From: Hysterangium stoloniferum
Taxonomy: Eukaryota; Basidiomycota; Agaricomycetes; Hysterangiales; Hysterangiaceae
NCBI GenBank assembly: GCA_015178975.1
Contig: WHVD01000115.1
Span: 1 to 64,000 of the forward strand
Direction of reading: 5' to 3'
Length of the DNA: 64,000 bases
Below are positions 20,236-43,505 of the stretch, one piece after another; the first letter of the stretch is position 1, and each line of letters starts with the position of its first letter. A program made the translations under genes and the position numbers. The notes below the pieces were generated by a model. It made no database searches, had not been told where the DNA came from, and was given only the letters and a program-made list of their open reading frames with translations.

Positions 20236-20645
20236 TACACATAACCAAATAACACACATAACCAAATAACACACATAACCAAATAACACACATAACCAAA
20301 TAACACACATAACCAAATAACACACATAACCAAATAACACACATAACCAAATAACACACATAACCAAATAACACACATAACCAAATAACACACATAACCA
20401 AATAACACACATAACCAAATAACACACATAACCAAATAACACACATAACCAAATAACACACATAACCAAATAACACACATAACCAAATAACACACATAAC
20501 CAAATAACACACATAACCAAATAACACACATAACCAAATAACACACATAACCAAATAACACACATAACCAAATAACACACATAACCAAATAACACACATA
20601 ACCAAATAACACACATAACCAAATAACACACATAACCAAATAATG
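20236..20645. repeat. 17-bp minisatellite, about 24 units
   Basis: The unit ACACATAACCAAATAAC is repeated almost without change. Because 17 is not a multiple of 3, the minus strand is open in all three frames, each giving the same 17-residue string (LFGYVCYLVMCVIWLCV). The plus strand has stops. It is not a gene. The final unit degrades at 20642. From 20650 to 21313 there is no supported gene. Confidence 0.93.
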
Positions 20646-31186: not shown

Positions 31187-32372
31187 TGTAAGGGCAACCC
31201 TAATAGTGGGTATCACACTAGTAGAGGAAATCCAAAGAATATATATAAGTAACTAAATACAAGACAACTATCTACTCACCTAGTAGAGGAAATCCAAAGA
31301 GAAAAGTCTAAGGAAACTCTACTAGGTGTTAGGATACACACACAGGGCGGGTCTCCAGAGAAACCCGCAGGATATCCAGTAGGACTTGGCTTCAGCTTAT
31401 AGGCTGCACCCTCGCTAGATCGTGTTGTCCAATTTCAAACAGGTGGATGGGAATCCCGGGCAGTCCGGGCAGGGTTCATGAGTCGTAGGTCGTGGGTTGG
31501 AGGTCATGGGTTGGAGGTCATGGGTTGGAGGTCGTGGGTCGTGAGTTGAGATAGTTGAGAGAGATAGATGTGCCGGAGCCTGTGGGCTCCGACTAGTGCA
31601 AGTGGTGTGAATCAAGTAGGGTTTTAGAGCAGAAAATGTTATTAGATTACTGGGGGGAATCTAAGCTAATTTTCTGACTGGATTGTATGTACAACATCTG
31701 CCAGTTTATATAGACCATGGAGTGAATGACATACCAAATCCAGTAATGATGAAATGAAACTAACAAAACATAAAATGGGAATAGTAAACACCAAATTGGT
31801 GTTAGGAATGGGACAGAACAGAGCGGAGTCCAAATCGTGACAAAGCATAACCCATAATGGGAAATGGAGTGGGAGTGGAGTCCTAAATCGTGACAGGTCA
31901 TTTGACTAAAATGGGAATGGGGCTCGATTAGAGTGGTGATGGGATTCTGAGCAGGGTCTGGTGACTGATGTGTGGGACGAAGACAGACATAGACAAAGAT
32001 GGAGTCCAGGGGAAGTTCGGTGACTGATATGTGTTGTAATGAGGTCGAACGTAACAAGTCTTGATGTAATGGAGTCTGGGTGGGAAATCCTATAAATAGA
32101 CATTTGGTGCATGTAGGGCATGATGGCATACAGGTTAGTGCCTGGAGTCCGGCAGGATTGTCTGGTTGTAACACTAGGTGTGACACGTCAGCTATACAGT
32201 ACACAGCATATTTTTCCCATGCCTTAAGCGCCCTCATACATCAGTTCCATGTACCCTATAAAGAATAAGGTGTCCTGTAATGGGGAGGTAATAAAATGGA
32301 ATAGACAATAGAGCATAATCTGGGGGTTACTAATCTGTGGAATATAAAGTGTGAATGACTTGTCCCCTTACA
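31187..32372 (+). repeat. Solo LTR of family B, with 5-bp target duplication GGGTC, itself interrupted
   Basis: TGTAAGGGCAACCC at 31187 and GTCCCCTTACA ending 32372 are the termini. GGGTC repeats at 31182-31186 and 32373-32377. Without the nested insertion the LTR is about 334 bp. It is homologous to the 301-bp solo LTR at 37192-37492, sharing CTAGYAGAGGRAATCCRAAG twice and GAGAAAAGTCTAAGGAA. Confidence 0.88.
31327..32173 (-). repeat. Solo LTR of Gypsy family A nested in LTR B, target duplication CTAGG
   Basis: An 847-bp LTR related to 4340-5158 begins TGTTAGGATAC (plus strand) and ends GGTTGTAACA. CTAGG at 31322-31326 and 32174-32178 is a clean 5-bp target duplication. No internal sequence remains, so it arose by recombination between the two LTRs of a full element. 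Confidence 0.9.
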
Positions 32373-32650: not shown

Positions 32651-33229
32651 CTGTTAAGGGTGCATACATGGAGGGTTTCCAGAGAAATCCGGTAGGACTT
32701 GGCTTCAGCTTATAGGCTGCACCCTCATGAGATCGTCTTGTCCAATTTCTAATGGGCAGATGGGAATCCTGGGGAGTCTGGGCGGAGTTCATGGGTCGAG
32801 AGGTCATGGGTCGAGAGGTCATGGGTCGAGAGGTCATGGGTCGAGAGGTCATGGGTCGAGAGGTCATGGGTCAAGAGGTCATGGGTCGAGAGGTCATGGG
32901 TCGAGAGGTCATGGGTCGAGAGGTCATGGGTCGAGAGGTCATGGGTCGAGAAGTTGGGGAGTCAAGATAGATAAGTCAGAGGTTGAGCGATAGATGCGTC
33001 GGAGCCCATGGGCTCCGACTAGTAAGAGCAGTGTGTTTCAAAGAGGAATTTAGAGCAGAAAATATACTAAGATTACTGGGGGGGAATCTAAGCTGATTTT
33101 CTGACTGGATTGTATGTACAACCTCTGCCAGACTATATAGACTGTGGAATGAATAACATACCAAATCCAGTAATAATGAAAACAAAACTAACAAACATAA
33201 AACGAGATAAATAAACACCAAACTTGGTG
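32651..33229 (-). repeat. 5' LTR of Gypsy copy 2, truncated, with internal minisatellite
   Basis: It starts TGTTAAGGGTGCATAC next to the gag leader and follows the family-A LTR through GATTGTATGTACAACCTC to TAAACACCAAACTTGGTG. It stops there because the palindromic element begins. In the intact LTR the text after TTGGTG continues TTAGGAACGGG; that continuation is absent on both sides of the palindrome. Confidence 0.85.
32780..32952. repeat. 15-bp minisatellite inside the LTR, about 11 units
   Basis: The unit GAGGTCATGGGTCGA repeats with one variant. The same LTR position in copy 1 has GTGAGTC-type repeats and in the solo LTR a GGTCATGGGTTGGA-type run, so this site has expanded independently. 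Period 15 makes all frames open but it is not coding. Confidence 0.9.
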
Positions 33230-35599
33230 AGAAACCCTGAACCGATGTTTTGCAATTCAGCACGATTTGCAAATATTCAAAAGGATACAGTGCGATTCAG
33301 TGCGATTCACAAATGTTTGAAAAGATACAGTGTGATTCATTACAATTGGCAAGTGTTCAGGAATATTCAATGCGATTTGCAAGTTTTCAAGAGGCTAGAA
33401 TGCGACTCTTTTAGACTTTTTGCAACTATTCTAGACTTTTTGTGACTATTCTAGACTCTTTGTGATTGTTTGCAACTCTGATAGACTGTTTGCGACTCTT
33501 TTGGACTTTTTGCAACTCTTTTGGACTTTTTGCAACTCTTTTGGACTTTTTGCAACTCTTTTGGACTTTTTGCAACTCTTTTGAACTTTTTGTGACTCTT
33601 TTGGACTCTTTGCGAATCTTTTAGACTCTTTTAGACTCTTTTAGACTCTTTGTGACTCTTATAGACTCGTTACAACTGTTATAGACTCTTTGCAACTGCT
33701 ATAGACTCTTTGTGACTCATGTAGACTCTTTGCGACTTTTTGTGACTCATTTAGATTCTTTGCGACTTTTTTAGACTCTTTGCGACTTACTCTTTGTGAC
33801 TCTTTGAAAAGTTGCAAAGTCGCACAAAGTCACACAAAGTCGCAAAGTGTCACATAAAGTCACAAAGTCACACAAAGTCACAAAGTGTTGAACAAAGTCG
33901 CAAAGTATCACAAAAAGTTGCATTGCAAAAAGTCGCAAAAGTGTTGCACAAAGTCACAAAGTGTCAAACAAAGTCGCAAAGTATTGCAAAAAGTCGCATT
34001 GCAAAAGTGTCACAAATCATAGCACAGTGTCTTCACACAATAATAATCTATGTAAAAAGCCTCCAAAATTTCTATTATCCTCTTTTCTCTATGACCACAA
34101 ACAATGATACACTATACACACAGCACATGGACAAAGGGAGGAAAAAAACGCATCACTATCAATTATATAGATAATGTATGTTAAGAAGAAGCCGCAGCAA
34201 ACCTGATATAGGGGATGATGGCATGGAACAAGAAAATGGGGCTTGGGGCAGGCAGTATCCAAGATGACGGCAGCGGCAGGGGGCAGGCTGGGGTGATGGT
34301 GGGTAGGTACAGGTAGTTGAGTATCGATACCAGTATCATCAGGCACAGGATATAAATGAGACATTGGTTATATTAAGTAGAATATACTTTTTACTTGTAT
34401 AAATCTTGAAAGCTGGTGCAGTGCTGGCCGGGGCAGGGTGACAAGGTGGGGAGAGGTGGTGTGGGCGTGATGGTGTGATATAATATGCTGAGCAAGAAAA
34501 AGGGAATCCAACTCCAAGTCTAGCTGGAGAGGATAGCAATAGAAGTGGGGGGGGATAACCAAAGGGAACTGGCCAGAGGAGACGATGGCGAAACGTGATC
34601 ACTCATCCATCCTATTCATATCTCCGTTTTCATCGTCCGCATACTGCTCCAAAGACTGCCATGGTGCACATTTGCGGGGGACAGCACAAGCGTGGTCCCC
34701 AGGCCCGACGGGTGCTGGTACGACTGGCGTGTCATCGACGTGTGCGGGTGATGTGAGCCAGTATACGACGTGTGGTGCGAGTCGCACACCTCCCCGCGAG
34801 AAATGGCCCGGCCCCACCTCCGTCCCCGATCCGCCCCCCGCCACACCACTCGAGCTGGTCGTGGTGGTGCTTGGCAAGCCCCCAGGGCCCTGCGGGAAAA
34901 ATGGCGCCGTCAGCGTCCCAAGCCCCAGCGTGCCGCCCCCACCCCCTCTGCCGCTGCCGCCCCTACTCGCGTTCCCTGCACCACTGCTGCTGCTGCCACT
35001 CCTGCTGAGGCTGCCGTATCCACTCCTGCCATTCCCCGCGGCGCCGCTACCAAGCCCAGGTGGGAAGCCCCCAAAGTCTGCACTCGAGCCGGTCTCGTCA
35101 GACCAGTTCTGCACGTGGTACGGGGGTGCACGCCACCGTGCACGATCGGGTGCAGCGGCGCGAGGTGCAGCGTGTTGTAGGGCCCGTTCCCGTGTCCGTG
35201 TCCATCACCACCGCCGTGTGGCCCGTGCCTGTGCCCATGTCCCTGTCCATGGTCGTGCAGCCCATACCCGTGTCCTTGTGGCCCGTGGGGCCAGTGGCCG
35301 CCGTGCGTGTGCCCTAGCTTGGGGAAGGCGGGGTGCCATGTCATGGCCAGGGGGAAGTGGTCGTCGGGGTCCGCATGGATGGCGGGTCCATTCAGCACGG
35401 GCACGGCATCGGCGTAGTGGCTGCTGCTGGAGTAGTAGGCCGTGGCGAGCCTGTAGGGGAGGCGGTAGGGTGCGCCGTCGACGGGGGAGACGCTGCCGTA
35501 CTCATCAGCGGGGAAGTTGTGTGGTGAGATGGAGGTGTCGGAGGGCGAGGCATCAGTGCGGCGCTTCTTGCAGCTGTTGTTGGAGTGGGGGCGGTAGAT
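33226..35599 (+). repeat. Left arm of the palindrome
   Basis: Reverse complement of 38160-40445. Matching is very high over the AT-rich block (for example 34040-34390 against 39360-39720), with more difference in the tandem arrays. The inner border is at ATCTACCGCC (35599), inside the captured gene. Confidence 0.88.
33400..34015. repeat. 10/20-bp tandem array of left arm, with orientation switch
   Basis: Up to about 33795 the unit is ACTTTTTGCAACTCTTTTGG (20 bp, two 10-bp halves). At 33796 it flips to the inverse type (AAAGTCGCAAAGTGTCACAC). The inversion point reads GACTCTTTGAAAAGTTGCAAAGTC, a possible hairpin. Confidence 0.88.
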
Positions 35600-35700
35600 G
35601 TATTGGGGTACTTGGAGTTGAAGTTTTCCTTCAACTTTTTTGGCTTGGTCGAGCTGCTTGCAACACTGCACACAGTCACAAAGTGTCACACAAAGTCGCA
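34599..35700 (-). pseudogene. Captured gene 3' end, left copy (HMG-box-like C-terminus, His/Gly-rich)
   Basis: A few residues in another frame (KKLKENFNSKYPN) followed by YIYRPHSNNSCKKRRTD resemble the last helix and basic tail of a fungal HMG box, with a one-base frameshift between them; this identification is tentative. Then come HNFPADEYGSVSPVDGAPY, a Tyr/Ser stretch, a GHGHG-type His/Gly run and a Gly/Ser-rich tail ending NGDMNRMDE. An 8-base length difference from the right copy near 35120 shifts the frame after HPIVHG. High GC and CpG contrast with the surrounding AT-rich arrays. Confidence 0.5.
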
Positions 35701-36160
35701 GAGTGTCACAAAAAGTCACAAAGTATCACACAAAGTCTCAAAGTGTCACAAAAAGTCGCAAAGTGTCACACAAAGTCACAAAGTGTCACAAAAAGTCGCA
35801 AAGTCCCACAAAGTCACAAAATGTCACACAAAGTCGCAAAGTCGCAAAAAGTTCAAACAGTCACAGTCACACAAAGTCTCAAAGTGTCACAAAAAGTCGC
35901 ACAAAGTCGCAAAGTGTCGCACAAAGTCGCAAAGTGTCACACAAAGTCGCAAAGTGTCACAAAAAGTCGCAAAGTCCCACAAAGTCACAAAATGTCACAC
36001 AAAGTCGCAAAGTCGCAAAAAGTCGCAAAAAGTCACAGAGTCGCAAAGTGTCACACAAAGTCGCAAATTACAAAAAGTCGCAAAGTCCCACAAAATGTCA
36101 CACAAAGTCGCAAAGTCACAAAAAGTCGCAAAAAGTCGCAAAAAGTCGCAAACCGTGCAA
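35670..36160. repeat. 20-bp tandem array of spacer, left part
   Basis: Unit CACAAAGTCGCAAAGTGTCA in one orientation. A ~125-bp higher-order repeat is visible: AAAAAGTCGCAAAGTCCCAC recurs near 35790, 35955 and 36072 with similar following text. Open frames here are repeat artefacts. Confidence 0.88.
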
Positions 36161-36164
36161 TAGT

Positions 36165-36735
36165 GTCAGTATGACTAAAATCATACCTGCCAGTGGAGTA
36201 CTCTAGCTCCCCATGTTCATCAGAGTCCATCTCAGAGAGCCAGCTTTCACAGTAGAAATATTTCGCCAGTTTTATGACTGGGAAACTATCACTTGGTGAT
36301 ACTGGGGTTTTAGTGTCGAGTGCCGCACGATCCCTAGCCTGCCAGGATTAGTTTGGCACTCAATGTCCAGCTGAGTGTATATAGGACTCTCACGCCTTTT
36401 CTCCCTGTATGACAACGTCATTGATACACTGTCCGTTCTTGTTTCGCAATTCTTCATCTGAGTTTTCTCTACATTCTTTACAATTTAGTTTTACCCACCC
36501 ACCCTAACCTCTTACTTTAGGTAATGGTAGTAATGTTACTTCCTCTGTGCGTAGTATTTTGTCATAGTTTCAGATTGCACAAAACGAGAGCTGTAAATGC
36601 ATCATGAATGCCTGCCCTCCCAAGCGGCGAGTCTTCCCATGCACACGTGGAGAGCTAACACTCTCCCCCTACCCAACCATGCAGCTCTCTTTAATTGTCA
36701 GTCTGAGATAGTCAATGCTGGAGGTGTGTGATATG
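36165..36735. other. Unidentified single-copy block in spacer
   Basis: About 570 bases without array sequence, containing CpG and Pu/Py-rich text (CCCACCCACCCTAACC). A 61-codon minus frame at 36457-36272 shows no domain. It may be another captured host segment. Confidence 0.35.
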
Positions 36736-37178
36736 AATTTTTGCAACTCTTTGTGACACTTTGAGACTTTGTGTGACTCTGTGACTGTTTGAACTCTGTG
36801 ACTTTTTGTGACTTTTTCCAACTTTGCGACTTTGTGCGACTTTGCGACTTTTTGTACTTTGCGACTTTTTGTACTTTGCAACTTTGTGTGACACTTTGTG
36901 ACTTTGTGCCACTTTTTGTGACACTTTGAGGCTTTGTGTGACTCTGTGACTTTTGAACTCTTGTGACTTTTTGCGACTTTTTGCGACTTTGCGACTTTGT
37001 GTGACATTTTGTGACTTCGTGGGATTTTGCGACTTTTTGTGACACTTTGTGACTTTGTGTGACACTTTGCGACTTTGTGTGACACTTTGACTAAAAGAGC
37101 CACAAACAATCTAAAAGAGTCTAAAAAAGTCGCAAAAAGTCTAAAAGAGTCACAAAAAGTCTAAAAGAGTCGCAATGA
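36735..37178. repeat. 10/20-bp tandem array of spacer, right part, with switch
   Basis: GACT-type orientation up to about 37090, then the AGTC type (AAAAAGTCTAAAAGAGTCGC) to 37178. It is followed at once by the target duplication of the family-B LTR. Confidence 0.85.
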
Positions 37179-37191
37179 ATCCCACTGTAGC

Positions 37192-37492
37192 TGTCAGGGG
37201 ACAACCTTAAGTTCCTCAAATTCACTTTTGACTTGTCAGAGTCTAGTCTCATAAGTCCAGGGTAAAGGTACCTTGTTTTTATCACATTTTCAAACTCCGC
37301 TACACTTTAGTTAGTCACACGCTAGCCGAGGGTTCCTTAGACTTTTCTCTTCGGATTCCCTCTGCTAGGTAAGTAGTACTGCAATTTGTATGTTTATAAC
37401 TAGATAGATATAAACTAACTTCGGATTCCCTCTGCTAGTGCCCCAACTCTGTCTTAGTGCGAGTCAGTGCGGTCTAGAGAGTCGCCCTTACA
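37192..37492 (-). repeat. Solo LTR of family B in the spacer, target duplication GTAGC
   Basis: A 301-bp repeat with TGTAAGGGCGACTC...GTTGTCCCCTGACA read on the minus strand. GTAGC at 37187-37191 and 37493-37497 is the 5-bp duplication. It retains CpG (GAGGGAATCCGAAG) where the copy at 31187 has lost it. It proves that LTR elements inserted into the palindrome's spacer after it formed. Confidence 0.92.
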
Positions 37493-37526
37493 GTAGCCTC
37501 TCAAATATTTGGGAATTGCACTCAAT

Positions 37527-37785
37527 GCAACTCTTTTAGACTTTTTGCAACTATTCTAGACTTTTTGCGACTATTCTAGACTCTTTGTGATTATTTGTGA
37601 CTGTTTGCGACTCTGATAGACTGTTTGTGACTCTTTTGGACTGTTTGCAACTCTTTTGGACTGTTTGCAACTCTTTTGGACTTTTTGCGACTCTTATAGA
37701 CTCGTTACAACTGTTATAGACTCTTTGCAACAGTTATAGACTCTTTGTGACTCATGTAGACTCTTTGTGACTTTTTGGGCGTGGG
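37527..37785. repeat. 10/20-bp tandem array next to the CBM21 fragment
   Basis: Units of the type GACTCTTTTGGACTGTTTGC and GACTCTTATAGACTCGTTAC continue the arm-type array up to about 37777, where a gene fragment starts (CCAAAAAGTC junction). Confidence 0.85.
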
Positions 37786-38159
37786 GGCGGGTGCAGTGGT
37801 GGGTCCCGAACTTGGGCTCAAGATGTCCATGTTGTCTTTCCCTTCAAGCTAGTGTGGAAATCATACCGTGCAGCGAGAGGTGAGGCAAGTGTGGGTTCCA
37901 GTTCCGCCGGGGACAACTTGTCCTTGTCCTTGCCCGTTAACAAATCATTGTCAAAGTTGGCATCCGAGTCAGAGTCACGGAGCGTGTGGGGGAGAATCCT
38001 CAGCCTCCACAGGGGGAGTTTATGTTGCCTGTCGTCCACAATGGTGACCGTGACACTCACTTTCTTGGCATGCTCAAACCCAACCTGGTAGTCCGCCCCC
38101 CCATTGTTATCCCACATATCCCACCCGCCCACCAGAAACCTCATGCAGAGCACTACCGC
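37786..38159 (-). pseudogene. CBM21 (glycogen/starch-binding) gene fragment
   Basis: The minus-strand frame reads VLCMRFLVGG, then WDMWDNNGGADYQVGFEH. The W-D-N-N-x-x-x-Y-x-V-x-F signature closes carbohydrate-binding module family 21, the domain of Gac1/PTG-type protein phosphatase 1 glycogen-targeting subunits. The domain's N-terminal two thirds are missing because the fragment starts at the palindrome arm border. After the domain come ~70 residues of disordered, Asp/Lys/Ser-rich sequence ending at the tandem array. It is a captured exon piece in the orientation opposite to the adjacent gene copy. Confidence 0.7.
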
Positions 38160-39155
38160 ATCTACCGCCCCCGCCCCAACAACAGCTGCAAGAAGCGCCG
38201 CACTGATGCCTTGCCCTATGACACCTCCATCTCACCGCACAACTTCCCCGCCGATGAGTTCGGCAGCGTCTCCCCCGTCGACGGCACACCCTACCGCCTC
38301 CCCTACGGGCTCGCCACGGCCTACTACTCCAGCAGCAGCCACTACGCCGATGCTGTGCCCGCGCTGAATGGACCCGCCGTCCACGCAGACCCCAACGACC
38401 ACTTCCCCCCTGCCGCGACATGGCACCCTACCTTCCCCAAGCTGGGGCACACGCAAGGCGGCCACCGGCCCCACGGGCCACAAGGACATGGGTATGGGCC
38501 GCACAACCATGGACAGGGACATGGGCATGGGCACGGGCCACACGGTGGCAGCGGTGATGGACACGGACACAGGAACAGGCCCTACAACACGCTTCACCCC
38601 ACGCCGCTGCACATGATCGTGCACGGACCCCCATACCGCGCGCAGAACTGGTCCGACGAGACTGGCTCGAGCGTGGACTTTGGGGGCTTCCCGCCTGGGC
38701 TTGGTAGCGGCACCGCAGGGAATGGTGGGAGTGGATACGGCAGCCTCAGCAGGAGCGGCAGCGGCGGCAGTGGTGCGGTGAACGTGAGTAGGGGCGGCAG
38801 CGGCGGAGGGGGTGGGGGCGGCACGCTGGGGCTTGGGACGCTGACAGCGCCGTTTTTCCCACAGGGCCCTGGGGGCTCGCCGAGCACCACCATGACCAGC
38901 TCGAGCGGTGGGGCGGGGGGCAGATCAGGCGCAGAGGTGGGGCCGGGCCATTTCTCTCGGGGAGGTGTGCGACTCGCACCACACGTCGTATACTGCCTCA
39001 CATCACCCGCACACGTCGATGACGCACCAGTCGTCCCAGCACCCATCAGGCCCGGGGACCACGCTTGCACTGTCCCCCGCAAATGTGCACCATGGCAGTC
39101 TTTGGAGCAGTATGTGGACGATGAAAACGGAGATATGAATAGGATGGATGAGTGA
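38160..39155 (+). pseudogene. Captured gene 3' end, right copy (His/Gly-rich protein)
   Basis: Starting at IYRPRPNNSCKKRRTD the frame stays open for ~330 codons to NRMDE and a TGA. It matches the left copy in order: PADEFGSVSPVDGTPYRLPY, SSSSHYADAVP, HGYGPHNHGQGHGHGHG, NWSDETGSSVDFGGFP and a Gly/Ser-rich tail. The upstream part of the gene is replaced by the inverted CBM21 fragment, so no start belongs to it. The 3' flank to about 39720 is shared with the left copy and looks like 3' UTR. Confidence 0.5.
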
Positions 39156-39736
39156 TCACGTTTCGCCATCGTCTCCTCTGGCCGGTTCCCTTTGGTTATC
39201 CCCCCCACTTCTATTGCTATCCTCTCCAGCTAGACTTGGAGTTGGATTCCCTTTTTCTTGCTCAGCATATTATATCACACCATCACGCCCACACCACCTC
39301 TCCCCGCCTTGTCACCCCGCCCCGGCCAGCACTGCGCCAGCTTTCAAGATTTATACAAGTAAAAAGTATATTCTACTTAATATAACCAATGTCTCGTTTA
39401 TATCCTGTGCCTGATGATACTGGTATCGATACTCAACTACCTGTACCTACCCACCATCACCCCAGCCTGCCCCCTGCCGCTGCCGCCATCTTGGATACTG
39501 CCTGCCCCAAGCCCCATTTTCTTGTTCCATGCCATCATCCCCTATATCAGGTTTGCTGCGGCTTCTTCTTAACATACATTATCTATATAATTGATAGTGA
39601 TGCGTTTTTTTCCTCCCTTTGTCCATGTGCTGTGTGTATAGTGTATCATTGTTTGTGGTCATAGAGAAAAGAGGGTAATAGAAATTTTGGAGGCTTTTTA
39701 CATAGATTATTATTGTGTGAAGACACTGTGCTATGA

Positions 39737-40275
39737 TTTGTGACACTTTTGCGACTTTTTGCAGCACAACTTTTTGCGATACTTTGCGACTTTGTGCGAC
39801 TTTGTGACTTTATGTGATACTTTGCGACTTTGTGCGACTTTGCAACTTTTCAAAGACACAAAAAATCGCAAAGAGTCTAAAAAAGTTGCAAAGAGTCTAA
39901 AAGAGTCGTGAAGAGTCACAAAAAGTCGCAAAGAGTCTACATGAGTCACAAAGAGTCTATAACAGTTGCAAAGAGTCTATAACAGTTGCAAAGAGTCTAT
40001 AACAGTTGTAACGAGTCTATAAGAGTCACAAAGAGTCTAAAAGAGTCGCAAAAAGTCCAAAAGAGTCACAAAGAGTCCAAAAGAGTCGCAAAGAGTCCAA
40101 AAGAGTCGCAAAAAGTCCAAAAGAGTCGCAAAAAGTCCAAAAGAGTCGCAAAAAGTCCAAAAGAGTCACAAACAGGCTATCAGAGTCACAAACAGTTGCA
40201 AACAATCACAAAGAGTCTAGAATAGTTGCAAAAAGTCTAGAATAGTTGCAAAAAGTCTAAAAGAGTCACACTCTA
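39737..40275. repeat. 10/20-bp tandem array of right arm, with orientation switch
   Basis: Mirror image of the left-arm array: GACT-type to about 39855, then AGTC-type (GTCGCAAAAAGTCCAAAAGA, 20 bp) to about 40270, followed by the terminal unique segment. Confidence 0.88.
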
Positions 40276-40445
40276 GCCTCCTGAAAACTTGCAAATCACA
40301 TTGAATATTCCCGAACACTTGCCAATTGTAATGAATCACACTGTATCTTTTCAAATATTTGTGAATTGTACTGAATCACACTGTATCCTTTTGAATATTT
40401 GTGAATTGTGCTGAATTGCAAAACATCGGTTCAGGGTTTCTCACC

Positions 40446-41024
40446 TTGAAAACCCTCTAAGAAACTCATGGAAAATCATCAATTTCTTCATCATTTCACA
40501 AACAGATTTTTTGAATTTCCATAGTGTTTGTGACCAAGGAAAATTTTGTTGAAATATATAATTATTCAATGATTTTATGTATAATTAAATTGTAAACTTC
40601 ATCATGGTTTTCCCCTTTCCAAAACATTAAAAAAACTTTGTCTTGGGTCAAGATTTTTTCAGGCAGAAAACCATAGTTTTCACTGAATTCCCTCAGGGGC
40701 AAAATTAAGTAGAAATATGTGGTTTTCAATTGATTTCTCTAGGCGCATTATTACAGTTTTCATAGGATTTTGTTAGGTGGAAAAATCCTAACAAAATACA
40801 GGGTTTTCTAAAAGTTTTCTTATTCAGAAAATCCATCAAGAATAGGCTATTTCCAACAATATTTCCTCATAATTTCCTGATGCAAATTTTTAGAATTTTC
40901 AGATCCAATTTTTGGCCTCAGAAAAACCTACTAAAACTCAGAATTTTCAAAGAGTTTTTCAATTCACAAAACACTTAGAAAATTTGGCCAAATAACAAGA
41001 TTTTCTGAAGGTTTTCCAACTCCA
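40446..41024. other. AT-rich degenerate repeat tract
   Basis: A loose ~60-bp pattern recurs: CAGAAAAYC, AAAACYCAG and TTTTCNAARNGTTTT. No gene. It lies between the palindrome and the Gypsy pol remnant and is devoid of CpG. Confidence 0.4.
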
Positions 41025-43505
41025 ACAATCTTGGGGTGCCTCCAGTGGCAGGCCCTAAAATGTCAGAGGTTGCCACCACAGAAACATTTTGTGCAGAGGA
41101 CCTACATAAGTTGGTTAACTTAGGACATGACATTCCTACTGATGTCTCCTCTCGCTCGGAGTCAGTATTGACTAAGAACATCCAAGCCTTTGGAGTAGAC
41201 GGGCATTTAGGACAAGTAGATGTCAAAGCCAATGTCCCGTTGAAAGAAGGCGTGCAACCTATTTCGATGCCAATGTTTCCAACTTCCCCAGCCAATAGGA
41301 AGGTCATTGATGAACAAATGGATACTTGGATTCAACAGGAGTAATTGAATCGTCCAAAAGTCCTTGGGGGGTGCCAGCCTTTGTCATCTATCACAATGGA
41401 AAACCGCAAGTGGTGATTGACTATTGGAAGTTGAACAGCCTAACAGTTCCCAACGAATTCCCATTGCCACGCCAGTCTGAAATCATGCAAGCGCTTTCAG
41501 GATCCAACATCCTATCTTCCTTTGATGTGTTAGCCCAACTTGAAATGTTAGAAGAAGACAAACTGAAGACTGCCTTCAGATCCCATTGAGGACTGTGGCA
41601 ATTCAGGAGAATGCCCTTTGGACTTCGTAATGGACCCTCTATATTCCAGAGAGTTATGCAAACTGTACTCACACCTTACTTATGGATATTCTGCCTAGTT
41701 TATATTGACAACATAGTGATCTTTTCTAAGACATCGGACAATCATTTAGAGCATTTAGACCAGGTCCTACAAGCCATAATTGCAGCAGGAATCACCCTCT
41801 CGCCCAAAACGTGCTATGTTGGGTATAACTCGATTCTATTACTAGGACATAAGGTGTCTAGACTCAGTTTTTCGACCCATCAAGAAAAGGTCACTGCCAT
41901 ACTAGAACTAGCTACACTTACCAAGATAGCAGATTTTCAACATTGTCTCAGGATGGTTCTGTACTTCTCTGCTTACATACCATTTTATTCCTGGACAGTT
42001 GCCCCGCTCTTCAACCTCTTAAAGAAAGGAGTTTGTTGAACTTGGGATTCCGAACACGCCAGAGCTTTTGAAGACATCAAAGTTGCACTGAGCTCTGCTC
42101 CAGTACTCAGACACCCTGCAAGTGGCATGCCTTATCGGCTATACATGGACACCTCAGACTTTGCATTGGGATGTTGTCTCCAACAAATACAGAAAATGAT
42201 GCTCAAGGATCTAAAAGACACCAAAATCTATGCCCAAGCAAGATCAGCCTTCGATCAATCTCAAGATGTGCCCATTTTCATCACTCATTATAAAACCAAG
42301 GAGCCAGAATTCACTTGGACAAATTCCTGGGCCTCAGATTTTGATGACACCAGTGTCACTGTTGAACGTGTCATCGCCTATTGAAGCCACATGCTCAAGA
42401 AAGCAGAATGTAACTACTCAGCCACAGAGCGAGAGGCGTTAGCCACTAAGGAGGGACTAGTCCATTTCCAGCCCTTTATTGAAGGAGAACATATACTTCT
42501 GATCACTGATCATGTGGCATTACAATGGGCCAGATCTTACGAGAACACCAATTGTCAACTGGCCACATGGGGGGCAGTATACGATGCATACCCCAGTCTG
42601 GAAATCCTACATCAAGTGGGACGAATACACAGCAATGTTGACCCACTGTCTAGACTCCCTCGAGTACCTGGCTGTGCTAGTCCTGCAAGAGACGACCTCT
42701 TACCAATTGTAGGGGATTCTTACAATTGGAATGACAACAAGACATTATGGGAGAACAAACCAGCGGAAAGGGCCATCTTTCTCACTCATCACAAGCTAGT
42801 TGAAACTGATTGGAATGATGGAAGAGGTCCCCCAAACAAAATGGGATCTGCACAACCTCCCCAGAAACGATGAAATTGGCGAGGCAAACTTTACTCTCTC
42901 GAATCCTCAATTGCTTATAGAAATTGATGAGAATTACACTAAGGAACTTCGCAACGGATATCAGAAAGATCCCACCTTCAGAAGTCATTACACTGCCAAT
43001 CCCATTTCCCCAAACGTGGTAGCTACCCCTTCTCACTATTTCATTGGCAAGAATAAGTTACTGTTTTTTCGAGATTCAGACTGGAAAAGTCGAATCTGTG
43101 TACCTAACAGTATGATGTCTACCATACTTAAATTGATACATGACAACCCCTTTGAAGGAGCTCATGCAGGCGGTCACAGACTTTTTCAGCTAATGAAGGA
43201 CCAATTTTTCTGGCTGAGGATGTTGCAGGACTGCGTGGTGTATGCTTGCAGCTGTGACATATGCCAGAAAACTATTTGTGCTATCATTCGAATGCACCAA
43301 AAGGCCTACAGTCGTTGGGTCTCCTCCATTCAGAGGCTGGACAGGCTGACATCCACCAACGACGTTTTGAAGTGGGAGGACATTGTCCTTTCCTTTTGCA
43401 CCAAGTGTCTCACCCACCTTGGAGGTTTTTTGCAGGACACATGGGGAGGAGTTCCAAGCATCTTTCAACACCTTCTTTGACATAGCTCTTCGACCTGGGG
43501 GGCAC
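41025..43505 (+). pseudogene. Gypsy pol remnant of a third family (RT, RNase H, integrase zinc domain)
   Basis: Successive plus-strand frames read ESSKSPWGVPAFVIYHNG, FDVLAQLEMLEEDKLKTAF, RMPFGLRNGPSIFQRVM and FCLVYIDNIVIFSKTSDN, where the catalytic YxDD has become YIDN. RNase H follows (YLDTSDFALG-type near 42145; CNYSATEREALATKEGL). Then comes the integrase H2C2 site, HDNPFEGAHAGGHRLFQLMK and CSCDICQKT. The integrase core is almost wholly deleted. At least four stops or shifts occur. No gag is present upstream. Confidence 0.85.

Follow-up and report, generated by a model that had tools for sequence, protein, structure and literature searches.

The first 64,000 nucleotides of contig WHVD01000115.1 of Hysterangium stoloniferum (assembly GCA_015178975.1; 111 Mb in 554 contigs), a basidiomycete of the Hysterangiales that is termed ectomycorrhizal in PMC7550596, contain a palindrome with pieces of host genes inside it. 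We refer to this whole stretch as the window and to its contig as C19. The palindrome raises the question of whether it arose once at this site or belongs to a mobile element, and of which kind. A reading of the sequence alone had proposed a palindromic, foldback-like element at 33226..40445, made either as a gene-capturing non-autonomous element or as a chromosomal inverted duplication by template switching. We find that the palindrome is one 7.8-kb copy of a dispersed transposon family with dozens of copies. This copy is very probably a truncated member of a non-autonomous CACTA/EnSpm-type family whose terminal inverted repeats (TIRs) are very long and which carries captured host pieces.

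The window palindrome has mirrored arms, 33226-35600 on the left and 38159-40445 on the right. Their identity varies along the arm: 34001-34553 aligned with 39200-39752 at 99% (553 nt), 34548-35127 with 38627-39206 at 92% (580 nt), 35211-35600 with 38159-38548 at 92% (390 nt) and 33226-33658 with 40013-40445 at 83% (433 nt). As the sequence-only reading had noted, both ends carry the same sequence, which is an identical 18-mer, GGTGAGAAACCCTGAACC, at 33226 and at 40445. A genome search returned 42 exact occurrences of this motif (19 forward, 23 reverse) and none of its reversed control, so that further copies with the same ends do exist; the motif extended by four bases gave 77 occurrences with up to 3 mismatches, the reversed control again giving none. 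We chose 17 inward-facing motif pairs with 2.7-13.5 kb between motifs, the window included, and compared the 16 non-window sequences, with outer flanks for ten of them and shorter flanks for others. Where these copies have intact ends, the inverted repetition extends some 602 bp beyond the motif (561 bp at the right end of C44a) and stops sharply at CACTGGAGGC, with CACTGGAGGCA(C/T)CCC as the terminus consensus in intact copies. CACTGGAGGC stands at nearly all intact ends, and one-base variants are found in L023 and L030.

In the window, this outer repeat is present in the right arm (40446..41047, minus strand), where the intact terminus reads CACTGGAGGCACCCC inward from 41047, and is absent from the left arm, which is cut at 33226. 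Since only the right arm has the outer repeat, the copy spans 33226-41047 and has lost its left 602 bp. Positions 33226 and 40445 are therefore not the termini of the element: the inverted arms proposed earlier are real, and the ends assigned to them fell about 602 bp short. Searched with up to 3 mismatches, the termini number 550 genome-wide (272 + 278), with 0 and 1 in the controls, which makes the motif-bearing family a subset of a larger one. A diverged sister end (L029:2298-3022) has related inner sequence and, by eye, array-like repeats. We also noted a miniature element of 363 bp (L077:820-1182) that is almost wholly palindromic and has the same ends, CACT(G/A)GAGGCACCCC.

Target site duplications (TSDs), which the sequence-only reading had proposed to look for at other copies, were scored in the 11 of 17 copies with both termini readable; the window copy, C46, C246, C1, C79 (one end truncated) and C533 (outer flanks) fall outside this set. 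Eight of the 11 copies have a perfect 3-bp TSD (C2 AAA, C20 AGT, C22 TCA, C146 AGA, C235 AAT, C323 ATG, C442 TAT and C511 CAG), compared with 6 of 110 cross-paired flanks of different copies, and none of the 11 has a TSD of 4 bp or more. The shared ends and the duplications demonstrate that the family has been mobile. Two copies lie 25 kb apart in a 33-kb block, C44:147703-180992 (L042, L043, L065-L068). In these copies, C44a and C44b, the duplications match crosswise (AGA outside, AAA inside) and each copy's own flanks do not match, as if the block were a composite transposon or the elements had recombined with each other.

Mapping the window blocks on the 17 copies revealed a shared order: outer TIR, inner TIR, arrays, 3'-flank, gene end, a type-specific part and then the mirror image. 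In type I arms the type-specific part continues the gene end and adds arrays, with a repeat piece in some copies; in type II arms it is a CBM21 piece with an array. Both arms are of type I in C2, C9, C22, C46, C246 and C442 and of type II in C1 and C79; the window and C533 combine a type I arm on the left with a type II arm on the right. The gene-end block is in a single orientation in C20, C44a, C44b, C235, C323 and C511, and in both orientations in the other 11 of the 17 copies. The CBM21 piece occupies both arms in C1 and C79 and a single arm in C533, C235 and the window. The CBM21 and gene-end pieces are thus arm components across the family, not a unique spacer.

The window copy follows this order. 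Its left arm opens with the inner TIR, which has 40-bp repeats (33226..33403, plus strand), followed by a subterminal array (33401..33787, 20.4 copies of a 20-bp unit) and a second array (33815..33998, 9.5 copies of a 20-bp unit). Then come the 3'-flank block, which resembles an untranslated region (UTR) of the captured gene (34031..34598, minus strand), and the gene 3' end itself, of type I with the longer edge (34599..35653, minus strand). The middle holds an inner array (35669..36152, 20-bp unit, 25.7 copies), a repeat piece (36153..36733), further inner arrays (36734..37175), an insert resembling a solo long terminal repeat (LTR) (37192..37492; 301 bp, TG..CA, 5-bp TSD GTAGC) and another inner array (37526..37776, 20-bp unit, 12.6 copies). 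To the right of these are the CBM21 exon piece (37777..38158, minus strand), the gene 3' end with its type II edge (38159..39155, plus strand), the right UTR-like flank (39156..39722, plus strand), subterminal arrays (39747..40267, in two parts, 39747-39849 and 39866-40267) and the right inner TIR (40269..40445, minus strand). The 10/20-bp tandem arrays described for the arms were recovered inside both ends of the copy, and the inverted copies of a gene 3' end and its UTR-like flank are likewise there, the flank being 98.8% identical between arms. The repeat piece at 36153-36733 had been taken for a second, single-copy block of the spacer; with at least 66 matched genome stretches among the 40 of 361 candidates scored, it is a dispersed repeat.

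The donor of the CBM21 piece could be traced. Window positions 37777-38158 align over 419 bp to a CBM21 gene on C441 (L079:267-685), within its open frame and at about 93% without gaps. The CBM21 domain of this gene scores at E 2.2e-24, and the window piece itself matches the Pfam profile at positions 87-112 only (E 0.0025, under the curated cut-off). The piece has 18 matches in the genome (all 18 candidates scored). The nearest end motif is at most 5 kb away for 15 of them, at most 10 kb for 16 (an area that makes up 1.2% of the genome) and at most 12 kb for 17; the one left over is the donor. Judged by this alignment, the piece is captured from the C441 host gene. The CBM21 exon piece of the sequence-only reading is therefore confirmed by a 419-bp DNA match, and its placement in a unique spacer is not, as both arms of C1 and C79 carry it. 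Leaving gaps aside, the divergence of the element copies from the donor is about 7%. When seven CBM copies from 5 of the 17 elements (C79, C533, C1, C235 and C19) were pooled, 107 of 158 mismatches to the donor were C>T or G>A, 89 of these 107 at a donor CpG; the copies share ancestry (both C79 copies give the same counts), so the mismatches are not independent events. This bias suggests methylation-linked decay of the family.

The gene 3' end is also concentrated near end motifs. Its right-arm block (38159-39155, 997 nt), whose open frame runs to a stop at 39155, gave at least 50 matched stretches among the 40 of 73 candidates scored. For 43 of these an end motif is at most 5 kb away, for 46 at most 10 kb and for 49 at most 12 kb; the fiftieth, on C553, has its own terminus 3 kb away. 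A 93-bp query across the type I edge gave 28 genome matches (28 of 28 candidates scored). At this edge, window 35573-35653 matches C34:74570-74650 over 81 nt at 91%. An HMG-box exon match (C34:74348-74476), over the cut-off (E 2.3e-9) and ending at profile position 43, is situated 93 nt upstream of this stretch; in the controls of this search, 2 of 14 genomes had matches, none over the cut-off. Placed by eye, the arm's AKKVEGKLQLQVP falls at HMG positions 57-69, which would make room for an intron of about 63 nt. Further matches to the type I edge, at 83-88%, lie at C124:816442, C399:519464 and C510:263945. A Pfam search at E 1 with an 80-residue piece of the left arm found nothing; it is thus the C34 locus, and no domain in the arm itself, that supports the HMG-box assignment. 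Two points speak against a C34 origin, namely the absence of C34 from the matches scored for the 997-nt block and the size of the link, 81 nt at 91% together with the nearby HMG exon. The donor of the gene 3' end is probably an HMG-box transcription-factor gene on C34.

Another source of the gene 3' end, C441, was ruled out because 2951 bp there match the window over the CBM21 piece only. Protein-database searches for a donor found no outside homologue; all the gene models they gave include the element block (in one search, 8000 candidates were scored). Three hypothetical proteins of H. stoloniferum in NCBI (P0001, P0002 and P0003) contain the captured block; they come from contigs that match C172, C268 and C2 in length, and end motifs are present on all three of these. 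By eye, P0002 also includes sequence antisense to CBM21, along with the beginning of a frame from the C1/C79 core.

Which known group the family belongs to can be judged from its ends. The termini are of the form 5'-CAC..GTG-3', the TSDs are 3 bp (read from other copies, the window's left end being lost) and subterminal repeats are present. Of these features, CAC..GTG ends and a 3-bp TSD are given for fungal EnSpm elements (PMC12730594), and subterminal short repeats and a 3-bp TSD for CACTA (CMC) elements (PMC8978399); the CMCT clade is described with mostly CA..TG ends and 2-5-bp duplications (PMC12730594). The element differs from these in that its TIR measures about 0.8 kb before the arrays begin (602-bp outer, 178-bp inner), its inverted arm reaches about 3 kb with arrays and gene pieces inside, and the copies that were read yielded no transposase. 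Its non-autonomous CACTA ends surround host gene fragments, the CBM21 piece and the gene 3' end, as do those of plant Pack-CACTA elements, which sometimes carry fragments of more than one locus (PMC8903248); CACTA elements of Chenopodium, too, are described with tandem arrays and with fragments of captured genes (PMC8978399). In contrast to the plant elements, it is fungal, has large arrays and carries the gene end in both arms in 11 of 17 copies, not in a unique interior. The element looks like a foldback-shaped Pack-CACTA, that is, a member of a known CACTA group that is unusual in carrying gene pieces inside mirrored ends.

Several observations weigh against a CACTA/EnSpm assignment. Three of the 11 scored copies (C9, C44a and C44b) lack a matching duplication, and rice and maize CACTA elements are given 5-nt TSDs (PMC8903248), unlike the 3 bp here. 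No EnSpm-type domain was found in 22 reading frames from C1, C9, C79, C442 and C511 (5 of the 17 copies; shorter frames were outside the scan). Genome-wide, we searched for the transposase families Plavaka and Transposase_21, the Mutator-type (MULE) family not being among them, and obtained 68 Plavaka stretches (control 0) and 12 Transposase_21 places, none of which lay inside 36 terminus pairs, a minority of all pairs, built from 100 of the 550 termini. Neither was therefore accepted as the resident transposase. The 4.6-kb core of C79 and the 7-kb core of C1 were considered as autonomous cores and rejected, as their 15 frames contain no Pfam transposase except a nested one of mariner type. 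With no EnSpm-type transposase in the copies read, these look non-autonomous.

What the copies do contain is inserts of other elements: a nested mariner-type HTH/DDE_3 pair in C1, an LTR element in C9 (1270-bp repeats at 99.9%; reverse transcriptase, E 4.7e-25) and a copia-type gag insert in C511 (E 3.4e-29; 122-bp end repeats). The C442 insert has a weak reverse-transcriptase-like match below the cut-off (E 0.0088). The inserts of C146, C46 and C533 have no frame of at least 80 aa, and by eye those of C146 and C46 resemble LTR pieces with short flanking duplications. These retrotransposon and mariner-type insertions are later events.

In FB and TU elements the inverted arms are long, contain tandem repeats and undergo modular rearrangement, and the element agrees with them in shape, including a variable middle. 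Tetris shares these features, and foldback is regarded as a structure that possibly arose in several lineages, most of them Mutator relatives (PMC4079207). A Mutator-type foldback moved by a MULE transposase would account for this shape, yet we consider it very unlikely: the termini are CACTG..CAGTG and no TSD exceeds 3 bp in the 11 readable copies, while Tetris has TSDs of 8-10 bp (PMC4079207). Tetris also differs in its array units, of about 220 bp against 10/20 bp here. The foldback likeness of the sequence-only reading accordingly holds for shape and probably not for lineage. A second candidate is an element driven by Plavaka, a related CMCT transposase clade (PMC12730594) that is abundant in this genome; four of its 68 stretches, spread over three contigs, are no more than 20 kb away from a listed single terminus, and the 2- or 3-bp TSDs of PlavakaB (PMC12730594) are compatible with ours. 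The ends differ, however, being TGT..ACA in PlavakaA and CATCA..TGATG in PlavakaB (PMC12730594), and the terminus pairs, from a list that is incomplete, enclose none of the stretches, so that we regard this origin as unlikely.

A palindrome with host-gene pieces is also the expected product of a one-off chromosomal inverted duplication by template switching, or could be an assembly artefact with no transposon involved; for the whole set of genomes, the assembly technology is given as Illumina, PacBio or hybrid (PMC7550596). This explanation is extremely improbable. The 17 inward pairs stand at different sites and 8 of the 11 scorable copies have TSDs, and the window arms differ by 1-17% depending on the block, which an assembler mirroring one sequence would not have produced. 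A dispersed family with TSDs refutes, as a general account, the chromosomal duplication offered as an alternative by the sequence-only reading, and its other proposal, a gene-capturing non-autonomous element, agrees with the dozens of copies, the TSDs and the host-gene pieces. On balance, the CACTG..CAGTG ends, 3-bp TSDs and subterminal arrays fit CACTA/EnSpm better than a Mutator-type foldback or Plavaka.

How a CACTA/EnSpm family of this shape moves and keeps its mirrored arms can be outlined. An EnSpm transposase encoded elsewhere would bind the CACTG ends, and probably also the arrays, as TNPA does in maize Spm, and the element would be cut and pasted in trans. Host pieces would enter by repair or aberrant excision, both of which have been proposed for Pack-CACTA capture (PMC8903248, PMC13317346), and would then spread with the family; as the copies share the same edges, each host piece was apparently captured once. 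Arm-to-arm copying, by gene conversion or fold-back repair, may make or renew the mirror image in some copies.

Comparison of the arms bears on this last step. Within C246, C442 and C79, the two gene-end arms show no difference (100% identity); between elements, the identity averages 93.5% and reaches 98.8% at most (n=112). For the 3'-flank block, the identity is 100% within C246, C9, C442 and C79 and 96.5-99.2% within the other five of nine elements (between elements, mean 97.3%, maximum 99.0%, n=144). In C246, C442 and C79, whole-arm identity is at least 99% over 2.5-3.2 kb; in the other 14 copies it is 84-97%. The near-identical arms of these three suggest arm-to-arm copying. Against a general role, the gene-end arms of the other five of eight elements are 88.9-98.5% identical, not above the between-element maximum, so arm copying is not general. 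The outer TIRs are 98.2-99.8% identical within eight elements and 92.3% within the truncated C246, with a between-element mean of 97.4%. The pattern suggests occasional homogenisation or renewed mirroring of the arms, not a constant process.

Further repeats lie outside the element. To its left is a direct duplication (31371-31795 and 32684-33222, 79-84%) that adjoins Gypsy-like minus-strand reading frames with a reverse-transcriptase match, and whose copy at 32684-33222 stops where the truncated left end begins. Just outside the element, 32785-32951 is a 15-bp tandem array of GAGGTCATGGGTCGA (11.1 copies, 98%), and window 20237-20643 is a perfect 17-bp tandem array (23.9 copies, 100%).

Gene capture by CACTA elements is described from plants in PMC8978399 and PMC8903248, and no comparable fungal element appeared in listings of open-licence PMC papers. 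For the annotation of H. stoloniferum, the family is a warning, as hypothetical proteins of this species in NCBI contain its captured block. With the CBM21 piece found in mirrored and unmirrored states and its donor surviving, the order of capture and mirroring is testable by sequence. A possible, if rather doubtful, account is a transposon that both captures and mirrors: a fragment taken into one arm would be copied to the other by fold-back repair, become part of the TIR and travel through the family. If so, transcribed arms would give rise to long hairpin RNAs against the donors, an HMG-box regulator and a CBM21 protein.

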